Assembly: GCF_032884065.1 (NCBI RefSeq)
Contig: NC_088868.1
Span: 5,715,626 to 5,779,625, forward strand
DNA length: 64,000 nt
From: Artemia franciscana
Taxonomy: Eukaryota > Arthropoda > Branchiopoda > Anostraca > Artemiidae
Reading direction: 5' to 3'
Positions 29,623 to 64,000 of the stretch are shown in pieces (position 1 is the stretch's first letter; every line of letters starts with the position of its first letter). The notes under the pieces were generated by a model. It saw only the letters and a program-made list of their open reading frames with translations. It ran no database searches and was not told where the DNA came from. Position numbers and translations under genes: made by a program.

Positions 29623-29684
29623 CTTTAATTATTTTTAATTAAATTACTTTAATATTTTATTTTAAAAATGGTTTTGAGGTTCAT

Positions 29685-30680
29685 TTTTGTGCACTCGATG
29701 TTTCAAAAGCTTTTGATTCAATATGCCATAGCCAACTTTGGTATTCTTTACTCCAACTTGGTGCAAATGTGTCTACTATATCTACTCTTCGTTTTTGGTA
29801 TGCTAATTCATATGTTCGACTCAAGTCAGGTGACACCTTCGTTGGTAATATCCCCATCCGTTCTGGTCTTAGGAAAGGAGGAGGCTTATCCCCTTATCTT
29901 TTTAATGCTTGTCTTTATTCTGTTTTGCCACGTATTAATCCATCATGTTTTTAGGCCTAACTAATCTTTCGTATATTGCATATGCAGATGATTTACTTTT
30001 GATCAGCCGCACTAAATCTAGCCTAATTAAGTCGACCCAGCTTGTTTCTAAGTCTTTTGATTAGATCGGCCTCAAACTTAATGCTGAAAAATGTGAATAT
30101 TTAGTTTTTAATGCTAAGCATCAAAGTAGTGATCTTGATTGTGGTTATTTTTCAGTTAAGCTTGTTTCTTCGATTCGGTGGCTTGGTATTAGTATTTGTT
30201 CATCTTTATCGGCTTTTTGATCTTGTGGGCTAAATGATATTAAAAGTAAACTTAAAAAAGGGTACGCGAAAATTGTCCCGAACAGAGGCAGATTTTCACG
30301 AAAGGCTTTATCCAGACTTTATTCTACATATTGCGATCATTCTATATTATTTCTTTCCGGTTTGCGCCCGCTTTTTAATAATCAAGATTTGCAGGGTATA
30401 AGAGTTCTGTATTTTCGTTATTGTAAATATTTATTGTATCTGCCGCGTTCTTATAGAAATCAGAAGATTATAAGAAAGTTTTGTGCCACTGATATTATTT
30501 TTGTTTATAAAAAACTCTATGCTAGATTAGGTGCTTAGGCTTGTCAACGCTTGGGCCCTTACCACCCTTTGATTAGACTGTATTAATTGTATTGTTTGTG
30601 CTATTTTGTTTTTCTTTCCTTAATGTTTTTACTCCGCTTAATGTGTCAATAACAAGCGGGTAACAAATAAATTATTAATT
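29685..30680 (+). pseudogene. Non-LTR retrotransposon reverse transcriptase fragment (CR1-like)
   Basis: The open part reads FCALDVSKAFDSICHSQLWY (RT motif A), then GLRKGGGLSPYLFNACLYS (motif B). After the stop at 29952-29954 and a frame change, it reads YIAYADDLLLISRT (motif C, YADD) and then a post-RT thumb with several stops. It ends near an A/T tail (AACAAATAAATTATTAATTA), 5' truncated and frame-broken. The CR1-like label rests on the motif phrases only. It sits between the two halves of a family B element. Confidence 0.85.
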
Positions 30681-37486: not shown

Positions 37487-38535
37487 TACTAAGGGGTAGT
37501 GGGGAAAACTTTTCATGGTAGACCTGACAGTAGCAGGTACAAATAGGGGCCTACTGCTGTTAATTTTTGTCACCGTCAAGCTTCTGACCTTACTAAGGGG
37601 TAGTGGGAAAAACCTTTTCATGGTAAACCTGACAGTACAGGTACAAATAGGGGCCTACTGCTGTTAATTTTTGTCACCGTCAAGCCACTGACCGTTCTAA
37701 GGGGTAGTAGGGAAAACCTTTTCAAGGTAGACCTGACAATTGCAGGTACAAATAGGGGCCTACTGCTGTTAATTTTTGTCACCGTCAAACCACTGACCGT
37801 ACTAAGGGGTGGTGGCGAAAAACTTTTCATGTTAGACCTGACAGTAGCAGGTACAAATAGGGGCCTACTGCTGTTAATTTTTCTCACTGTCAAGCCACTG
37901 ACCGTACTAAGGGGTGGTTGGGAAAAACTTTTCATGGTAGACCTGACAGTAGCAGGTACAAATAGGGGTCTATTGCTGTTAATTTTTGTCACCGTAAAAC
38001 GACTGACCGTTCTAAGGGGTAGTAGGGAAAAACTTTTCATGGTAGACCTGACGATAGCAGGTACAAATAGGGGTCTACTGCTGTTAATTTTTGTCACCGT
38101 CAAGCCACTGACCGTACTAAGGGGTGGTGGGGAAAAACTTTTTATGGTAGACCTGACAGTATCAGGTACAAATAGGGGTCTACTGCTGTTAATTTTTGTC
38201 ACCGTCAAGCCACTGACCGTACTAAGGGGTGGTGGGGAAAAACTTTTTATGGTAGACCTGACAGTAGCAGGTACAAATAGGGGTCTACTGCTGTTAATTT
38301 TTGTCACCGTCAAGCGACTGACCGTACTAAGGGATGGTGGGGAAAAACTTTTCATGGTACACCTGACAGTCGCAGGCACAAATAGGGGTCTACTGCTGTT
38401 AATTTGTGTCACCGTCAAGCCACTGACCGTGCTAAGGGGTAGTGGGGAAAAAATTTTATGGTAGATTGACGGTAGCAGGTACGAATAGGGGCCTACTGCT
38501 GGTAATTTTAGTCACCGCCAAGCCACTGACTGTCC
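37487..38535. repeat. 105-bp minisatellite, ~10 copies
   Basis: The unit includes CTAAGGGGTAGTGGGGAAAA, CTTTTCATGGTAGACCTGAC, AGTAGCAGGTACAAATAGGG and GTTAATTTTTGTCACCGTCA. The GGTAC landmark recurs at 37536, 37640, 37745, 37850, 37955, 38060, 38165, 38270, 38375 and ~38478. Because 105 is a multiple of three, long frames stay open on both strands (37618-38418 minus and 37829-38464 plus). These are repeat products, not supported genes. Confidence 0.97.
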
Positions 38536-45499: not shown

Positions 45500-46495
45500 C
45501 TTGTTCCTTCTAATTTTGTTCCTGGTCACCCTCCTTATAGTAAGAAATATAAAATTTATGACCCAGCTTGAACCTAATGCAAAAAAATTGTCTCCTTTTT
45601 CTTCGTGAGCGCGTTTTATTTGCTAGCAAGAAACCGCTCTTTGTTCCTAGCCGCACACCTTATAGTAAGAAATTCAATATTTGTGACCCATATTGAAACG
45701 AATGGAAAAAATTGTTTACTTTCTCTTCGTTAGCGCGTTCTATTTGATAGTGAGGAAAGTTCATTGTTCCTGGGTGCCCTCCTTGCAGTAGGAATCTTAA
45801 CACTTCTGAATTAGTTTTAACCGAATGTAAAAAAAGTGTATCTTTTTTCTTGGTTAGTGCATTTTATTTGCCAGCGAGAAAGACTTCTTTGTTCCTGTTC
45901 GCCCTCCTTATAGTAAGAAGTTTAGTATTTATGCCCCTTACTGAACCGAGCGCAAAATAGTTTGTACTTTCTCTTCGTTAGCGCGTTTCATTTACTAGTG
46001 AGAAAAATTCATTGTTCCTGGGTGCCCTCCTCGTAGTAAGAATTTTAAAGTTTATGACCCAGCTTTAACTGAATACAATAAGTGTCTCTCTTTTCTTCGT
46101 CAGTGTGATTTATTTGCTAGCGAGAAAGTATTCTTTGTTCCTAGTCACCCTAATTATAGTAAAAAAAAATATTTAGTACCCATATTGAACCAAATGCGAA
46201 AAAGTGTGTATTTTCTCTTCGTTTGCGCGTTTCATTTGCTAGTGAGAAAACGTCCATTATTTCAGAATGCCCTTCTTGCAGTAGGAGTCTTATAATTTAT
46301 TACCCAGCTTGAGCCGAACACAAAAAAAGCGTGTCTTTTTTCTTCGTCAATGTGATTTATTTGCTAGCAAAAAGCGTTCTTTGTTCCTAGTCACCCTCCT
46401 TATAGTAAACAAATTAAAATTTAGCACCCATGTCGAGCTGAATGTAAAAAAGTGTCTATTTTCTCTTCGTTAGCATGTTTCATAATTCATATTTC
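45500..46495. repeat. ~124-bp tandem array, 8 diverged copies
   Basis: A GTTCCTGGTCACCCTCCTTA, TAGTAAG, TTTATGACCCA, TCTTCGTTAGCGCGTTT, TTTGCTAG-GAGAAA pattern repeats with landmarks at 45518, 45643, 45766, 45891, 46014, 46137, ~46259 and 46383. Alternate copies look more alike (GGTCACC against GGGTGCCC types), suggesting an older ~247-bp dimer. Confidence 0.9.
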
Positions 46496-47026
46496 CGAAT
46501 ATCTGTTTCAATTTTCTTTAAAATGGAGAGTTCAGATGATAATTCATGCATTTGAGGAGCCTTTGAAATTGAAGGTACACGAGCACAACCACAAAAATAA
46601 TTAGCACCATAAAATCATCACGATTGCAGAAATTAGCACGACCTTAAGACGGGTAAGACTTTGGCAGGGTTGCCAACTGTAGCAGGTAAGAACTATTTTA
46701 ACACTATTCAACCATATATAGGACTGTTGAGTGTGCCCAGGGCTGCTAAAATGGCAGAGAGTGCTATTACAGTCAAACTTGTGAGTTTAGCACCGAAAAT
46801 CGCTGGGTAGCATCCGAGCATTGGTAATTGTAGTACTTTAGCAGCTTTAAGCCGCGGCAACACTGCTCAAAACAGATAAATAGAAGAAGGGAACGAATAG
46901 CCTAGCCTAATAATAATTCAAAAGGGTTTATAATTGATAATTTTATAGATGTTAGTGTGGTGACGCAGAGGGCAAAAGCTGAGCGCATTTTCTCGACAAG
47001 GACAACCCATCTATGGTGCCATTAAC
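46496..47026 (+). promoter_or_regulatory. Probable YPEL5 promoter and 5' UTR region
   Basis: The interval between the 124-bp array and the YPEL5 ATG is less AT-rich than its surroundings and free of recognised repeats. A TATATA at about 46720 and an acceptor-like TTTTATAG at 46948 are present, but neither the transcription start nor a 5' UTR splice can be decided from sequence. Confidence 0.35.
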
Positions 47027-47135
47027 ATGGGAAGAGTGTTTCTTGAACATTGTGGTGGATCAAAGCTTTTTACTTGTTCTCGTTGCCAAGCTGTTTTGAC
47101 AAATAGAGCTGAATTACTTAGTACTAGGTTTACTG
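47027..47135 (+). CDS. YPEL5: Yippee-like 5 (YPEL5), coding exon 1
   Basis: YPEL5 is a small zinc-binding protein of the Yippee/Mis18 fold. In animals it is reported at centrosomes and spindle and as a partner of the WDR26/GID-CTLH ubiquitin ligase. This exon starts at ATG 47027 ([20 protein letters not shown]) and ends in phase 1 within Gly37 (STRFT|G) at a GTAAGT donor. It supplies the first zinc knuckle, Cys17-Ser-Arg-Cys20. The MGR-F--H-GG start is the same as in human YPEL5, which fixes the start codon. The next exon lies 9.8 kb away. Confidence 0.95.
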
Positions 47136-56937: not shown

Positions 56938-57182
56938 GTGCAACTGGAAGAGCTTTTCTGTTTGGGAAAGTTATAAACATTAAGTACAGTGAGGTGCAGG
57001 ATCGGATAATGCTTACTGGTCGTCATATGGTGAGAGACGTATCCTGCAAACGGTGTGATCAGAAACTCGGATGGATGTATGAATTTGCCACCGAAGAACA
57101 ACAAAAATATAAAGAAGGCAAAGTAATTCTCGAGAAGGCACTTGTTAACGAAATCGATGGTATTGATGAAGCTGATGATTAG
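56938..57182 (+). CDS. YPEL5: Yippee-like 5 (YPEL5), coding exon 2
   Basis: Bases 56938-56939 complete Gly37. The frame then reads [40 protein letters not shown] and [20 protein letters not shown], to TAG at 57180-57182. Cys73-Lys-Arg-Cys76 is the second zinc knuckle, and exactly 52 residues separate the two CxxC pairs, the Yippee signature. The product is 117 residues (human 121), with an acidic [10 protein letters not shown]-terminus. The 3' flank is unusual: a second coding frame begins 27 bases after the stop in the same frame. Confidence 0.96.
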
Positions 57183-57209
57183 CTCAAGTTTGTACCTATT
57201 TTCGAAAAT

Positions 57210-57426
57210 ATGAATGTGCCCCCGAAAATGGTTTTAACAGTAAAAAATGTGGACAAATTCAGTAGTGCACGTAAAAACAGTGTTGACTCATCTAGTGAGG
57301 ATGAAAAATCTGTACTTTCTCCAAAAAGTCAAGAATTCAAAGAGGAACCTTTTAGAAGTTGTCTGAATGATAAAGATAGTCAGGAATATGCATTGTCAGA
57401 TGAAAGTATTGCATGGCAACCTAGAG
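57210..57426 (+). CDS. Unrecognised small protein, exon 1 (downstream of YPEL5)
   Basis: An ATG at 57210, or the better-context ATG at 57228 (GAAAATGG), opens a 72-codon frame. Its N-terminus is MVLTVKNVDKFSSARK-like. A Ser/Asp/Glu-rich stretch follows (SVDSSSEDEKSVLSPKSQEF), then DSQEYALSDESIAWQPR. It ends in phase 1 at AGAG|GTAAGC, a good donor. SP and SxDE motifs suggest phosphorylation. I do not recognise the family. It is in the same frame as YPEL5, separated by TAG and nine sense codons, with no room for a separate promoter. Expression would therefore need a bicistronic message, stop readthrough, or a start inside YPEL5 exon 2. Confidence 0.6.
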
Positions 57427-57464
57427 GTAAGCTTTTTTCAATAATTAAAAAAAAATTTTTATAA

Positions 57465-58090
57465 AAAATAAATTTTTAGACAAAAGTAAGGAACTGTATA
57501 CCATATAAACCTAAGACAAAAAAAAAATTCCGCTATTCAAACCTAAAACGAACAGAAATTACTAACAATGAATAAATAAAACAGTTCAATGTAAAAACAG
57601 ATAATATACACGCATGGACCAATATATGGAATATATGGACCAATATGGACCATATGTACAAACACCGAATCTATGATGCTCAATTACACCTGCGCTCCAT
57701 GCGCTCAATCATCGCAATGCAAGATCCTCCCAGCAGAAAATTCTTCCTTCTTCCACTCCCCATCGAAAAAATGTATGCATATTTCCAATAGCAAATAAGC
57801 AGTGGGGAAATTTTATAATTTATAAAACTTTCCCCAGGGGCTTGTAGGGGGTCATTTTATCTCCAAAGACATAGTTGTTGGGACTTTCAACTATGCTGAA
57901 CAAAAAAGGTATCTTAAAATTTTGATGGGGTGATTTTTGGGAAAAACAGGATTGGGAGGGGACCTAGTTGCCCTCCATTTGTTTTGTCTTTTTAAAAGGG
58001 CACTCAAACTTTTCATATTAAGAGACACATTTTATAACATAAAAACCTTTCCCCAGTGGCAGTAGGGGGTTCAAGTTTGAGGGGGATGAT
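57465..58090 (-). repeat. Family A repeat fragment in the intron of the downstream gene
   Basis: It contains TCCAAAGACATAGTTGTTGG, TTGATGGGGTGATTTTTGG and GACCTAGTTGCCCTCCA, matching the minus-orientation copies at 20374 and 34790. A truncated motif AACCTAAAACGAACAGAAAT lies at ~57540. Confidence 0.7.
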
Positions 58091-58710
58091 TTTCGAAATA
58101 GGTACAGAATTAGGCACAGGGTAGATACAGAATTAAGAACTTAATAGTTCTTAGCCCAATAGTAAATGAAACTCTAAAATACGGTATTTTTATGCCAATA
58201 AACAATTGTCAACGGCATCTATGTTATTTCCAGAGTTATTGCAGCTGAGTTTTATTGTTTGCTATTAATGGGATAAGACTATTGTATTGCTTTGAGGTTA
58301 TCTTCACATTGATTGATACCCTCTAATAATACATTTATAGTTAAATTTTTATGAGAGATTTTCTTTAGTCCATAGAATATGACTTTCTCTCTGGGTATTT
58401 TCATTAAAGCCATCTTTTTTTAAGAAGACTGGCTCGCAATCTATATTATAAAAGTTGTATAGCGCCATATTTGTTACATTCATTAAGGTGCTGATTTTTC
58501 ACAGAACAAGCAGAAGAGGGGAAGGAACCCCCTGGAAGCGCCGTACTTTACCTGCCGGTATTCAGTAACACGTAAATTGCGGGGAATAGGTGAGGGGGTC
58601 CTTACGTTTCCCTTGTTCCTGGGTAATTTCAGTAACTTGGGTATTTGTTCAGTGCTCTGTGCGTGCACTTGAGATTGATATTTTTGGATTATTATTAACC
58701 TGTCTTACAG

Positions 58711-58781
58711 GTAGCGACTTGGGCTTTCTAGTGAACTGTGCTCCACCCTTGGCCATTCTGATTGGACTTCTTATCCTGTGA
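58711..58781 (+). CDS. Unrecognised small protein, exon 2 (hydrophobic tail)
   Basis: The exon follows ATTATTAACCTGTCTTACAG, an acceptor with a branch-point-like TTAAC. Its GT completes the Gly split by the 57426 donor, and the frame continues SDLGFLVNCAPPLAILIGLL-IL to TGA at 58779-58781. The joined product is 95 residues. Its last ~20 residues are strongly hydrophobic with nothing after them, the layout of a tail-anchored membrane protein with a cytosolic acidic N-terminal domain. The phase match and tail support this join, but no transcript evidence exists here and no AATAAA follows closely. Confidence 0.5.
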
Positions 58782-58854
58782 CGCTACTGCCTGACTACTC
58801 TGCCCACTGATTCTGTTTAGACTCTAAGCAATTTTATTCCCATACGCACCTGCA

Positions 58855-59760
58855 TCCGGCATGTGCTCTAGGGAGAAAGCCGAGGAAGTTGTTTACAATC
58901 CAATTATAAACTTTATGACTCGTGCAGTCAAAGTAGGGAATAAAAGTGATGACGTTGTGGTCAAAACTGTTCAGTATTATAAGGAGGATGCTCTAGCGAA
59001 AGCCAAAGAATTGATTTGGCCTCTTGCTGGAACGTTGACGCATGCGTCAGCTCAATCGCAAATCGCACTGGGGGCTATGCTGGTATAGAAGAGAATTTTG
59101 ATATTTTAAGTTTTGAGTATGAACAGATTGGTGTTAGATTTAACCCAGAAAAACGTCAAGTTGTTGTAGTAGGAAAGTCGACCGGTCGTTCATCTGCTGA
59201 AAATTTTTGCCTTGGATCGCATCTTTCAAAGCCTTCGTCTAGTATTACTTACCTTGGTTTGCCAATTGCCTCTAGTTTAAAGCATTCTAGGACCCTACTG
59301 CTTGAGTTTTTAAGTGAAAGACTGCGAAGGACGTATGGACTTCTTGTTTAATGTAAATCCAGGTATGAGCAGGCAATTTTAGGAAGGATATACAATGCGT
59401 CTGATGTGCCCCATCTACTAGCATTAGCACCCTTTTGGGAACTTTTTAGTTAAAATGAAAAAAAAACTATTCACCGACTGTTTTCCCGTTCTGAAGTTCC
59501 TTTTAGGTATCCCTCTCTGGAAGAGCAATCGACGACTTTTGTTTAGTTTTGGTATAGCACAACTATTTGTAGTCATTGAAGAGCACCGGCCTCGCTTTAT
59601 GAATACGCTAGATCGTGACAACAGTTTACTGAGTGCTTTTTATTGTGAGATTTAAGTGTGAATCTATCTTTTCTTTTTCCTTTTTTTTTGTCTTTACTCC
59701 GTGTTAGCATTATATGTATCTTTTGGGAAATAAAATATTAGCAGTGATAATAAAAAAAAG
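58855..59760 (+). pseudogene. Internally deleted non-LTR retrotransposon
   Basis: The first part (58861-59030) reads CSREKAEEVVYNPIINFMTR, then VVVKTVQYYKEDALAKAKEL, which looks like upstream retroelement ORF sequence. It then switches abruptly to a post-YADD region (from ~59070): IGVRFNPEKRQVVVV, SSSITYLGLPIASSLKHSR. The YADD motif and most of the RT are missing. Frame changes follow (FSRSEVPFRYPSLEEQ in one frame at 59470-59530). The element ends with AATAAAATATTAGC and a TGATAATAAAAAAAA tail at ~59760. Confidence 0.75.
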
Positions 59761-61394
59761 GATCGGCTTTTTTGTGCTGATTTCATACACATCAATTTTA
59801 TTGTGTTCGATGTTACTCACAAAAAGCTAGGAGCCTGAGAAAATTCTGCCTGGTTTTCGAAATGGGGAAGTACCCCCAAAGTAAAGCGAACTCTCTCTTA
59901 GAGTTAATTCTGTATACACTCTTTATCTCTCCCTCCTTAACTATCCGAAATATTTCTAAGGTCTAAAGAAATTTCGCTGTCTTAGGTAAATTCCCTGTTG
60001 TTTTACACTTCTAGTATTTTCATTAGGGCTATGGGAATTTGCCTCTCAGATTTTCTGTAGTTAGGGAGGGAGGGAGATGCCTCAAAAGGTGTATTTTTAA
60101 AACCAATACATCCCGACTCTTATTGAGCCTTCAAATAAAAAAAAGTTCTAAGAGAGAGACGAGGGAAGGGTGAAGTGGAAATCAATATAGGACTTTAATT
60201 TAATCCCTCGTGATTTCTTGGAATATTTCTGGTCTACCATGTTATTATAAAAGTAAAGATTGATATTAAGTCCAAAATGAGCCGAATTTACTCTGTATTG
60301 GAGGGGGAACCCTCCTTCCTCATCCCCACCTCCACTTCAGGGTCGCTGAAACTTTGGAAGGTGCTCATTACATTAGAAACTGATAGTTCTAGTCCTTTTT
60401 TTATAAGTCGAAAGTGGTTGGAGACCAAACAGCCGCGGTGGTGGTATTTTCCACCAGGGGGTATTTCCGGATGGGTGTTTTTTACAGGGGGTAATTTATA
60501 GGGGGAAGGGGTAAACGCCTGCTCCTAAAATATGTGCGCTGTTTCTTTCTTTTCTTGGCCTTAGACTATTTTTCTAGACTTTTTTCTTATTACAATATGA
60601 TTCAGTCAGCCAAAATGCTAATATTGTTCCAAAGAACTTTCAGTGAAAGAAAGAGGATGCTAAAGAGCGTATTTTCAGCTCTTGAGATGGGAGTAAAAAA
60701 ATGTGCTTTTGGTCCTAATTATCCGAATCGTTTTGATTGTAACTGCTTTCGTTGGGTATCTTGAACAGTTCTTTGAATTAGTGAGGATTCTCCCCACCCC
60801 TGACGGGACCTGTTCTTTATTATTGATGTAATAAGTGGTAGGATTTCGATGATCGCTGAAACTCAACCAGTGGCTAGACCCCTAGTGACCCCCTAGTAGA
60901 CCCCTAGTGCTCTTTGAAGGTTGCAGCAACTGGGATCATGTTATTCTTTAATTGGAATTCCACAACTTCAGATATAAGTGTTATGGGCAAGATACAATGA
61001 TAGAACAATCTAGTGAATACTCCTTTTTAAGAATATCTGTGATGATGTAATAAAAAAAAGATAAAACAAGACTCAAAAGATCATGTGGCATTTTATTTTA
61101 GCAGTAAATGTTAAATAAAACACAGAAAAGAAAAATATGCTGTAACTCTAGTTATTATTCGCAACCAAAATTAATTGAGATCCAATAATTTTGGATCTCA
61201 ATTAATTTGAGATTAATCTAGAATTAATTTCAATTAATCAACTCTTCCTAACAGTTACTGAAGCTGTGAACAACAGAATAAATAAAACAATTTATAAATA
61301 TAAACAATTTTATAAATATAAAATTGTTTATAACAATTTATAAAACAATAAAATAAATAAATAAAAACAATTAGCTATTTATGCTGATTCCCAT
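59761..61394. other. Intergenic DNA with repeat scraps
   Basis: A short family A block (GAGCCTGAGAAAATTCTGCC) lies at ~59830. The interval 61160-61370 is AATTAAT/TAAAACAAT low-complexity sequence with palindromic ATTAATT motifs. No gene is supported. The frame at 60277-60501 (plus) looks like chance. Confidence 0.4.
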
Positions 61395-61605
61395 GTTGCC
61401 AGTCAAAACGTACAAGCCTGAACAAATTTGCGTGATATTCAAAACGGGGGGGGGGGAGAACATCCCCAAAAAGTCAAGGAGTTTCAATAAAAATCGGACT
61501 TTTAGATTCAGCCTATAAGAGAACGTTACTTTAGATATTTCAAGCTCTTGTCTGAAAACATGTGAAATTTTGTAATTTTTAAGCAAAGATCACTAAGATA
61601 GTATC
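61395..61605 (+). repeat. Family A repeat fragment
   Basis: It contains AAGCCTGAACAAATTTGCGT, CATCCCCAAAAAGTCAAGGA and a TTTCAAGCTCTTGTCTGAAAA block in family order, diverged. Confidence 0.7.
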
Positions 61606-61839
61606 CCTATTCTGCTTTTAAGCGCCTAGGAACCCCTACCCTTTTCTTCCTTAATGGCTTAAGATCATGAAGGTTTAACTGCAATCATCTCAGTGCTGTC
61701 ATCTACATAACCAAAGTCCTAGAGGAAATAACCAATCTCCGAAAATTGTAGTGACTATAACCGGTCAGGTATCCATTTTATAATGTAATGGTACTTAACA
61801 CATTAGTTTTCGAGTACTGGGGCTTGCGCATGAGTTTGG

Positions 61840-62570
61840 GTCCCGAGTTCCCCTCCAAGGCCCAAAGCCCCTTACCAAGTCCCCAAGCCCCTCACCAGGG
61901 CCAGAAGTTCCCTTCCAGACCCCTCAGTCCCATTTTAGGGCCTCAATGCCCCCTACAAGTTTTGCTCCTCATTGTTTTTTGTTTTTTCTTGGTTTTTATG
62001 AATTTGTCTGGATTTTAAGAGGTGGGCCTTAATTTTTACAGTTTGTGCTTGATTTTTTGTATTCTTCGGGATTTCTATGTGTTGGTCATAATGTTGTAGG
62101 GGTTGGCCATGATTTCTACAGTTTGGTTTTGATTTCTCTGGTTTGGTCTGGATTTCTAGGGTTATCCCTGATTTTTATAAATCTGTCTGAATTTCTATGC
62201 GTTCATAATGATTTTCCCTGAATGCCTGTGCATTGATTATGATTTCTATAAATTTTTTCCGGATTTCTATGTATTGATTATGATTTTTATGAATTCGTCG
62301 GGATTTCTATGTATTGGTCATGAGTTTTTAGAGGTTAGCCTTGATTTTTACAATTTAGTCTAGATTTTTATGGTTTGGTCTTAATTTCTATGGTTTGATC
62401 TGGATTTATAGGGTTGATCCTGATTTCTACGGTTTGGGCTTGATTTTTATGAATTCGTAAGGAATTCTAGTATTGGTCGTGATTTTTTAGAGATTGACCA
62501 TGATTTCTATGGTTTGGTGGATTTGTAGGGTTGACCCTGGTGAATTCGTCTGGATTGCAATGTATTGGTT
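61840..62570. repeat. Degenerate short-period repeats before the (TA)n tract
   Basis: The interval 61840-61960 is C-rich with repeated CCCCAAG/CCCCTYACCA motifs. From 61990 on, GATTTCTATGGTTTGGTCT-like words recur every ~17-30 bases with drift, an old, decayed minisatellite. Confidence 0.6.
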
Positions 62571-62571
62571 A

Positions 62572-62717
<146 letters not shown>

Positions 62718-64000
62718 CCAGTTTTAACTTATAAATTTTCAAAAACTATTGGGCAAATTATTTTTAATTATAATTTAATACTAAAAAAACTAGATAGTGA
62801 TATAAATTGGAAACCGGTTTGTAATTGTAAGCAACTTGGCCCATTTGTAAATCCTATTTACAAACATGTTATAACAGGGGACTTGTCAATAATAAAGCAT
62901 GATGATCTTCAAATTATAATGAATAAAGGGGCTAATTTCCGTCTTTCTCATCATCTGAAACCATCGAGTGTTCTTGATGGCTTGGAAAATGATTTTGATT
63001 TATTTATTGATAAGTGGTGTAAGAAAGAGAATAAAAATAGAGAGAGTTTTCAAAGTTGGAAGAATTTAATTATTAGTAGAGTAAGAAATAAAATATATTC
63101 TAACTTAAAAAATAGTAACACTAAATCATTATTTTATAATGCGAAGATTAAACAAGCAATTGCTAATCTAAAGAATGAATTTGTAATTGTGCCAGTGGAT
63201 AAAGCTAATAATAATTTTGCTATAATTTGTCAGAAGCTGTATTGTGATATCTTAAAAAGGGAGCTATGCACAACTAATGTTTATGAAAAGGTAAATATAG
63301 AGGATGAGAATTTAATTGAAAAGACTGAAGAAATACTTTTTAAAAATTTTAATATTAAAATAAATGACAATGATAAAAAGTTCCCTTTCCTATATTGGAC
63401 AGTAAAATTTCATAAGAATCCCCCTAAACCACGGTTTATTGCTGGAGCAGCTAAATGTCCAACCCGCATTGCTGCTACTGACCTCTCTTTAATTTTAAAG
63501 GAAATTGTAAATAAACTTAAAACCTATTGTTCTGGTATTAAAAAATTTTCGAATTTTAATCCATATTGGAGTGTTAATAATTCACTGCAGGTGATAGATT
63601 CTTTAACAATGGTTTCAGCTAAAAGAATTGAGTCTTTCGATTTTGCGACAATGTATACTAATTTATCACTTAATTTAGTGTTTGATAATTTAAAAACTGT
63701 TATAAAGAAATCTTTCCTCTTATCTAGTAAAAGGTTCTTAAAAATAGACAGTTATAATAAAAAAGCTATATGGACAAACTGCTTTAATACTACAGTTAAC
63801 TTGAGATGTTACAGCTTGGATATGATTTTTGAGTTATTGGAATTTGTTTTATACAATACTTATATAAGATTTGGGGGTGATTTGTACAAGCAAATTATGG
63901 GAATTCCCATGGGGGGGAATGCCAGCCCATTTATAGCTGACTTGTTTTTAAGTCAACTAGAATATAAATATATGATGGATAAGAATAATCCAATTAATTT
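62718..64000 (+). CDS. Penelope-like retroelement reverse transcriptase, partial
   Basis: A single open frame of ~427 codons runs to the window end without a stop. In order it reads [66 protein letters not shown] (PLE RT core), [13 protein letters not shown] (motif A, catalytic Asp) and [20 protein letters not shown] (motif B). Motif C lies beyond the window. The phrases CNC, HVITGDL and VPVDKA-NN resemble the Naiad/Neptune-type Penelope-like elements of invertebrates, where a GIY-YIG endonuclease can precede the RT. Here sequence before CNC is cut off by a (TA)n tract, so the endonuclease is lost, lies downstream, or was never present. The copy looks intact where visible. Confidence 0.9.

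Follow-up and report, generated by a model that had tools for sequence, protein, structure and literature searches.

A coding-like frame directly behind YPEL5 in Artemia franciscana: candidate first exon of a GPATCH2L-like gene and a repeat-derived hydrophobic tail

The open frame which lies directly behind YPEL5 in Artemia franciscana is very probably a genuine coding exon, as judged by its base composition, length and splice donor. With modest confidence we consider it to be the first coding exon of a separate same-strand GPATCH2L-like gene, whose next exons would be the candidates e2, e3 and e4 located downstream. A small tail-anchored protein which had been proposed to be encoded by this frame is very probably not real.

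YPEL5 and the frame behind it

The window, meaning the whole stretch of 64,000 nucleotides which was analyzed (C6:5715626-5779625; GC 34.2%), contains the following features around the YPEL5 stop codon:

47027-47135, plus strand: YPEL5 coding exon 1, with a phase-1 donor and a match to human YPEL5
56938-57182, plus strand: YPEL5 coding exon 2, ending in TAG at 57180-57182
57210-57426, plus strand: coding frame behind YPEL5, open from 57183, with ATGs at 57210 and 57228 and a phase-1 donor after 57426
57462-57472, plus strand: in-frame TAA (57462-57464) and AATAAA (57467), which would close an unspliced product of 84 residues and its message

YPEL5 (yippee-like 5) is a subunit of the WDR26-CTLH ubiquitin ligase, and its fly relative is presumably CG15309. 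The Artemia gene was found to be intact, with the two exons joining to give 117 codons and TAG. The product carried a full-length Yippee domain (Pfam PF03226, E 3.5e-12) and was closest to human YPEL5 (phmmer against chain 8qbn_Y, E 2.8e-58, residues 1-114), while a search of the organism's own genome, covering 1,270,528,402 bases in 6468 contigs, returned only its own two exons at E up to 0.001. The YPEL5 donor ranked 9 among 3277 GT sites and the acceptor 210 among 3671 AG sites, using splice-site weights which were textbook-like values entered by hand and not trained on the Artemia franciscana genome.

Upstream of YPEL5, exons of a gamma-glutamyltransferase gene (PF01019) were observed on the plus strand as five open frames at 2716-29445, together with an RVT_1 fragment at 29643-29954. 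At 37604-38511 a tandemly repetitive stretch, built on a unit of about 33 residues, had open frames of 286 and 297 codons on its two strands, and a 97-codon open frame without a Pfam match, ranked 9 of 82 for coding character, lay directly before YPEL5 exon 1 at 46002-46295. An ATG located 14 bases 5' of the YPEL5 ATG, in a different frame and with T at -3, opens a 28-codon frame (47013-47099) which overlaps the YPEL5 start and which, if transcribed, is a possible regulatory uORF.

As the preliminary description had reported, the YPEL5 TAG is followed by nine sense codons (27 bases) and then, in the same frame, by an ATG at 57210 which opens an acidic, serine-rich ORF; a second in-frame ATG was present at 57228, and 93 codons were open behind the TAG, up to 57464. 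The phase-1 donor into which this ORF had been said to run was also found, at 57426 (AGAG/GTAAGC, 7.27 bits), where it ranked sixth among the 3277 GT sites of the window. When the window's 82 open frames of 75 or more codons were ranked by position-specific base composition with a model trained on YPEL5, the frame behind YPEL5 was placed fourth; the third place of YPEL5 itself is circular because the model was trained on it. The ten best frames included four gamma-glutamyltransferase exons, one RVT_1 frame and one frame of YPEL5 exon 2, and three others (41022, 58983 and 46002) had no match above the Pfam cut-off.

The same features were then sought behind the 22,517 stops present in 210 kb. 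The sample was drawn from 21 loci of the same genome, read on both strands (210,000 bases in total, minus the last 700 bases per strand, with the neighboring loci L003-L007 included), and the coding model was trained on 501 codons of YPEL5 and gamma-glutamyltransferase exons with the frame behind YPEL5 left out. At least 81 open codons were found behind 231 stops, and among these only one was equally coding-like, three had a donor scoring 7 bits or more and none had both. The coding character of the exon and its single match in the genome are direct observations. No homologue of the frame was found in Pfam, the PDB, viral contigs or the rest of the organism's own genome, and a search of that genome for a second copy of the 57210-57426 exon, in which three candidates were scored in all, returned none. 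Relatives were sought by searching YPEL5 against the genome and viral contigs and the joined frame against the viral contigs, and none was confirmed. A literature search returned no paper linking YPEL5 with the terms bicistronic, Artemia or tail-anchored.

A likeness between the frame start and the Mff motif (Mff/Tango11) was dropped, Pfam giving no match up to E 10. We also rejected trans-splicing, or use of another acceptor immediately 5' of the ATG, the AG sites at 57183 and 57189 ranking 2035 and 2772 among 3671, and a GPI anchor, no signal peptide being seen on inspection by eye. Structured RNA was rejected as well, with no Rfam match at gathering score between 46500 and 64000.

The proposed tail exon and the surrounding repeat

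Three repeat features were located on the 3' side of donor 57426:

57720-58040, plus strand: abundant interspersed repeat in the intron, matched up to about 25 times within about 273 kb (window and sampled loci)
58603-58777, plus strand: block 1 of a retroelement-like repeat, 88% identical to C32 (locus L026) over 175 bases, with acceptor 58711 and nearly all of 58711-58781 inside
58868-59062, plus strand: block 2 of the same repeat, 86% identical to C32 (locus L026) over 195 bases

The preliminary description had joined donor 57426 to a phase-matched hydrophobic exon at 58711-58781. The join, the phase and the hydrophobicity were reproduced, giving a 95-residue product of pI 4.85 with a top 19-residue Kyte-Doolittle mean of 2.21 at its C-terminus, but the exon proved to lie in a dispersed repeat and outside the open frame of that repeat. 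Acceptor 58711 scored 3.44 bits (rank 128 of 3671 AG sites). Within 57480-64000 there were 361 AG sites, 15 of which, 58711 included, scored at least 3.4 bits, and 13 scored higher than 58711; a hydrophobic tail was obtained from two of these 15 best sites (58711 and 61939). The tail exon is no better than chance.

A protein search of the organism's own genome matched query residues 79-104 to C32 at 69% identity (E 0.0963), and at the DNA level the two blocks matched L026 with E values of 1.8e-60 (58603-58777) and 3.5e-63 (58868-59062). The blocks are adjacent in L026 and 90 bases apart in the window, and acceptor 58711 is common to both copies except for one base. A single 82-residue open frame spans both blocks in L026, and this is not the hydrophobic frame. 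Counted from 58711, the two copies share 18 of 22 residues when read in the open frame and 15 of 21 when read in the hydrophobic one. The third frame, which contains stops, also keeps 18 of 22, so that the coding frame cannot be chosen from these counts alone. No further copies of the 58603-59062 repeat were found in about 273 kb (window and sampled loci), so it is not abundant. Its retroelement-like, or non-LTR-retrotransposon-like, nature was judged by eye; Pfam named no domain in it, and a single below-cut-off match on the C32 copy was taken as chance. The repeat nature of the tail and the frame mismatch were themselves observed. On this sequence comparison 58603-59062 reads as dispersed sequence and not as a gene-specific exon, whether or not it is a retroelement, and the hydrophobic tail as an out-of-frame reading of it.

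The 95-residue tail-anchored protein and the membrane-tethered YPEL5 of about 222 residues which readthrough had been suggested to produce are both left without support, because both need exon 58711-58781, whose tail is read out of frame from a repeat also found on C32. The single C-terminal transmembrane segment derives from this repeat and not from an exon of the gene's own. The result removes a probably false membrane-tethered form of YPEL5, and the case illustrates how a splice acceptor inside repeated DNA can pass for that of a tail exon.

Candidate exons downstream

The coordinates of the downstream candidates continue the numbering of the window beyond 64000:

76600-76785 (C6:5792225-5792410, L004:3226-3411), same strand as YPEL5: exon candidate e2, GPATCH2-like
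81226-81479 (C6:5796851-5797104, L004:7852-8105), same strand as YPEL5: exon candidate e3, GPATCH2-like
from 90779 (C6:5806404, L005:7405), end not fixed, same strand as YPEL5: exon candidate e4

In the model which we favor, the first coding exon at 57210-57426 would start a gene 27 bases behind the YPEL5 stop, donor 57426 would join acceptor 76600, and the retroelement-like repeat with the hydrophobic tail would lie in the first intron and be absent from the product. The candidates e2-e4 are located 19-34 kb downstream of the YPEL5-adjacent frame, on the same strand, with GT-AG junctions in phases 1, 1 and 0. As an initial exon before e2, 57210-57426 scored 30.7 bits and was the best of three phase-1 candidates (next 9.7) and the best of eight initial exons of all phases between the YPEL5 stop and e2 (next 24.1, phase 2). 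The same-strand e2-e4 set would be a better partner for donor 57426 than 58711. Phase agreement by itself, however, is expected by chance in 1 of 3 cases. When 203 phase-1 exon candidates between 57470 and 93000 were scored, e3 (81226) was fourth and e2 (76600) sixth, and some of the higher scorers came from mobile-element-like frames. The first and second belonged by eye to one long Penelope-like frame (63403 and 63451), the third was 70655 and the fifth, 70862, had the same end as 70655. At 62544-64151, extending into L003, a long open frame was noted which looks Penelope-like by eye and is coded in part by a TA repeat, and a similar frame was present on the minus strand at 86483-87961 in the extended numbering.

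The candidates were compared with human GPATCH2 and GPATCH2L sequences entered by hand, using 2000 shuffles for each of five queries against two targets; one query was the YPEL5-adjacent exon without its start. For e3 the p values were 0.001 with GPATCH2 and 0.0075 with GPATCH2L, for e2 0.0035 and 0.23, and for e4 0.076 and 0.067, while the YPEL5-adjacent exon was not significantly similar to either (0.55 and 0.26). Collinear short blocks shared with these human sequences were found in e2-e4 (RRKRRCKRMAID; DEGRQ-GDDEFSDW), and the second of these, formed across the intron when e3 and e4 are joined, showed one difference in 13 places from the hand-entered human string. Given hand-entered human sequences, the exons downstream, with their phases and their likeness to GPATCH2/GPATCH2L, are in part shown.

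With respect to features expected of the family, scaffold C6 differed from GPATCH2/GPATCH2L in having neither a G-patch nor a recognizable family start. The start, which we take to be MxELVHDL, was not found in 40-93 kb; tblastn with the hand-entered GPATCH2 against 153 kb gave chance-level matches only, Pfam and the PDB gave no match for e2-e4, and the joined gene model had none in the PDB at E up to 1. The G-patch domain (PF01585) had 24 matches in the genome, none on C6, and none was found by motif in the 153 kb. Its absence from C6 excludes a complete GPATCH2 here, barring a break in the assembly or a missed domain. GPATCH2L is not known to carry a G-patch and would fit this absence. Among the 24 matches, five lay on C7 and two on C1603, and pairs of equal score suggest duplicated or haplotype copies.

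Expression route, alternative readings and known systems

A gene which starts 27 bases past the YPEL5 stop would share its message with YPEL5 or have it started within the YPEL5 gene. The GPATCH2L-like message would be either dicistronic with YPEL5 or produced from a promoter or alternative first exon inside that gene. Of eight ATGs from the YPEL5 start to 57210, one had a purine at -3, and the ATGs at 57210 and 57228 both had A at this position. Reinitiation, an internal promoter or an alternative first exon would each be in keeping with such good start contexts behind a spacer of 27 bases.

Stop readthrough, by which the frame would lengthen YPEL5 at its C-terminus and either end unspliced at 57464 or be spliced to another exon, is unlikely, although the frame is in register, coding-like and free of stops for 93 codons. 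Abundant readthrough has been proposed for insects and crustaceans, with more than 600 readthrough stops estimated in mosquito and more than 900 in fly (PMC5100048, in part), and readthrough is plausible for this clade. The YPEL5 stop context, however, is weak: in UAG CUC AAG the UAG C is present, and neither UGA-CUAG nor CARYYA, the motifs given for efficient readthrough in the cited part of PMC4132726, occurs. RNA folds around the stop were ordinary (z -0.02 and -0.34), the frame has start codons of its own with A at -3 already nine codons in, and the downstream gene model is better. Distinctly unlikely is a separate short protein, a second cistron of 84 residues without a membrane tail, ending unspliced at TAA 57462-57464 with AATAAA 57467 closing the message. 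The good start contexts and the proximity of TAA and AATAAA behind the donor would agree with it, but few donors in the window are stronger than that one and AATAAA is common in AT-rich DNA, six AATAAA or ATTAAA being present in 57001-59400.

We consider it very unlikely that 57426 joins 58711 and that a mobile-element fragment has become the new hydrophobic tail of a small protein or, via readthrough, of YPEL5. The phase-matched join, the acceptor score and the tail hydrophobicity agree with such an exonized repeat, but the out-of-frame reading, the 13 higher-scoring AG sites and the second hydrophobic tail among the 15 best sites stand against it. The least probable reading is a chance or decaying frame without a product; the lack of a homologue is in its favor, but length, composition and donor together were matched by none of the 22,517 stops. 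The gene model behind YPEL5 is the simplest reading. The two frames run on in one register through the TAG, so that occasional readthrough of a message encoding both YPEL5 and the GPATCH2L-like protein is conceivable, and would produce a YPEL5 fusion coupling a CTLH-ligase subunit to its partner, which we regard as quite improbable.

The Artemia protein resembles human YPEL5 in keeping G2, R3 and F5 at its N-terminus, residues reported to enter WDR26 (PMC7616709, in part); it has 117 codons against 121 in human, and no sign of a membrane form was seen in its sequence. The same passage places the human C-terminus in a WDR26 groove and reports that HA-tagged YPEL5-HA, the tagged end not being named there, still binds WDR26, for which reason an extension of YPEL5 may be structurally conceivable. 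As in Drosophila readthrough extensions, an in-frame coding-like frame follows the stop. The fly extensions described in the cited part of PMC3840789 include eight in which transmembrane segments are predicted, one being spliced, as well as an extended CTLH subunit, RanBPM, whereas here the hydrophobic segment is repeat-derived, the stop context is weak and the frame has its own start codons. In Drosophila, 159 dicistronic gene pairs have been described (PMC4528330, in part), and a title cited there states that a second cistron is well translated if the first lacks in-frame AUGs. The Artemia arrangement differs in being known from sequence alone and in that YPEL5 holds three internal in-frame ATGs. 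If the message is shared, Artemia would offer a crustacean example of neighboring genes separated by 27 bases and lying in one frame, where dicistronic translation could be distinguished from readthrough; as in the Drosophila pairs, two coding frames lie on the same strand, here with a 27-base spacer.
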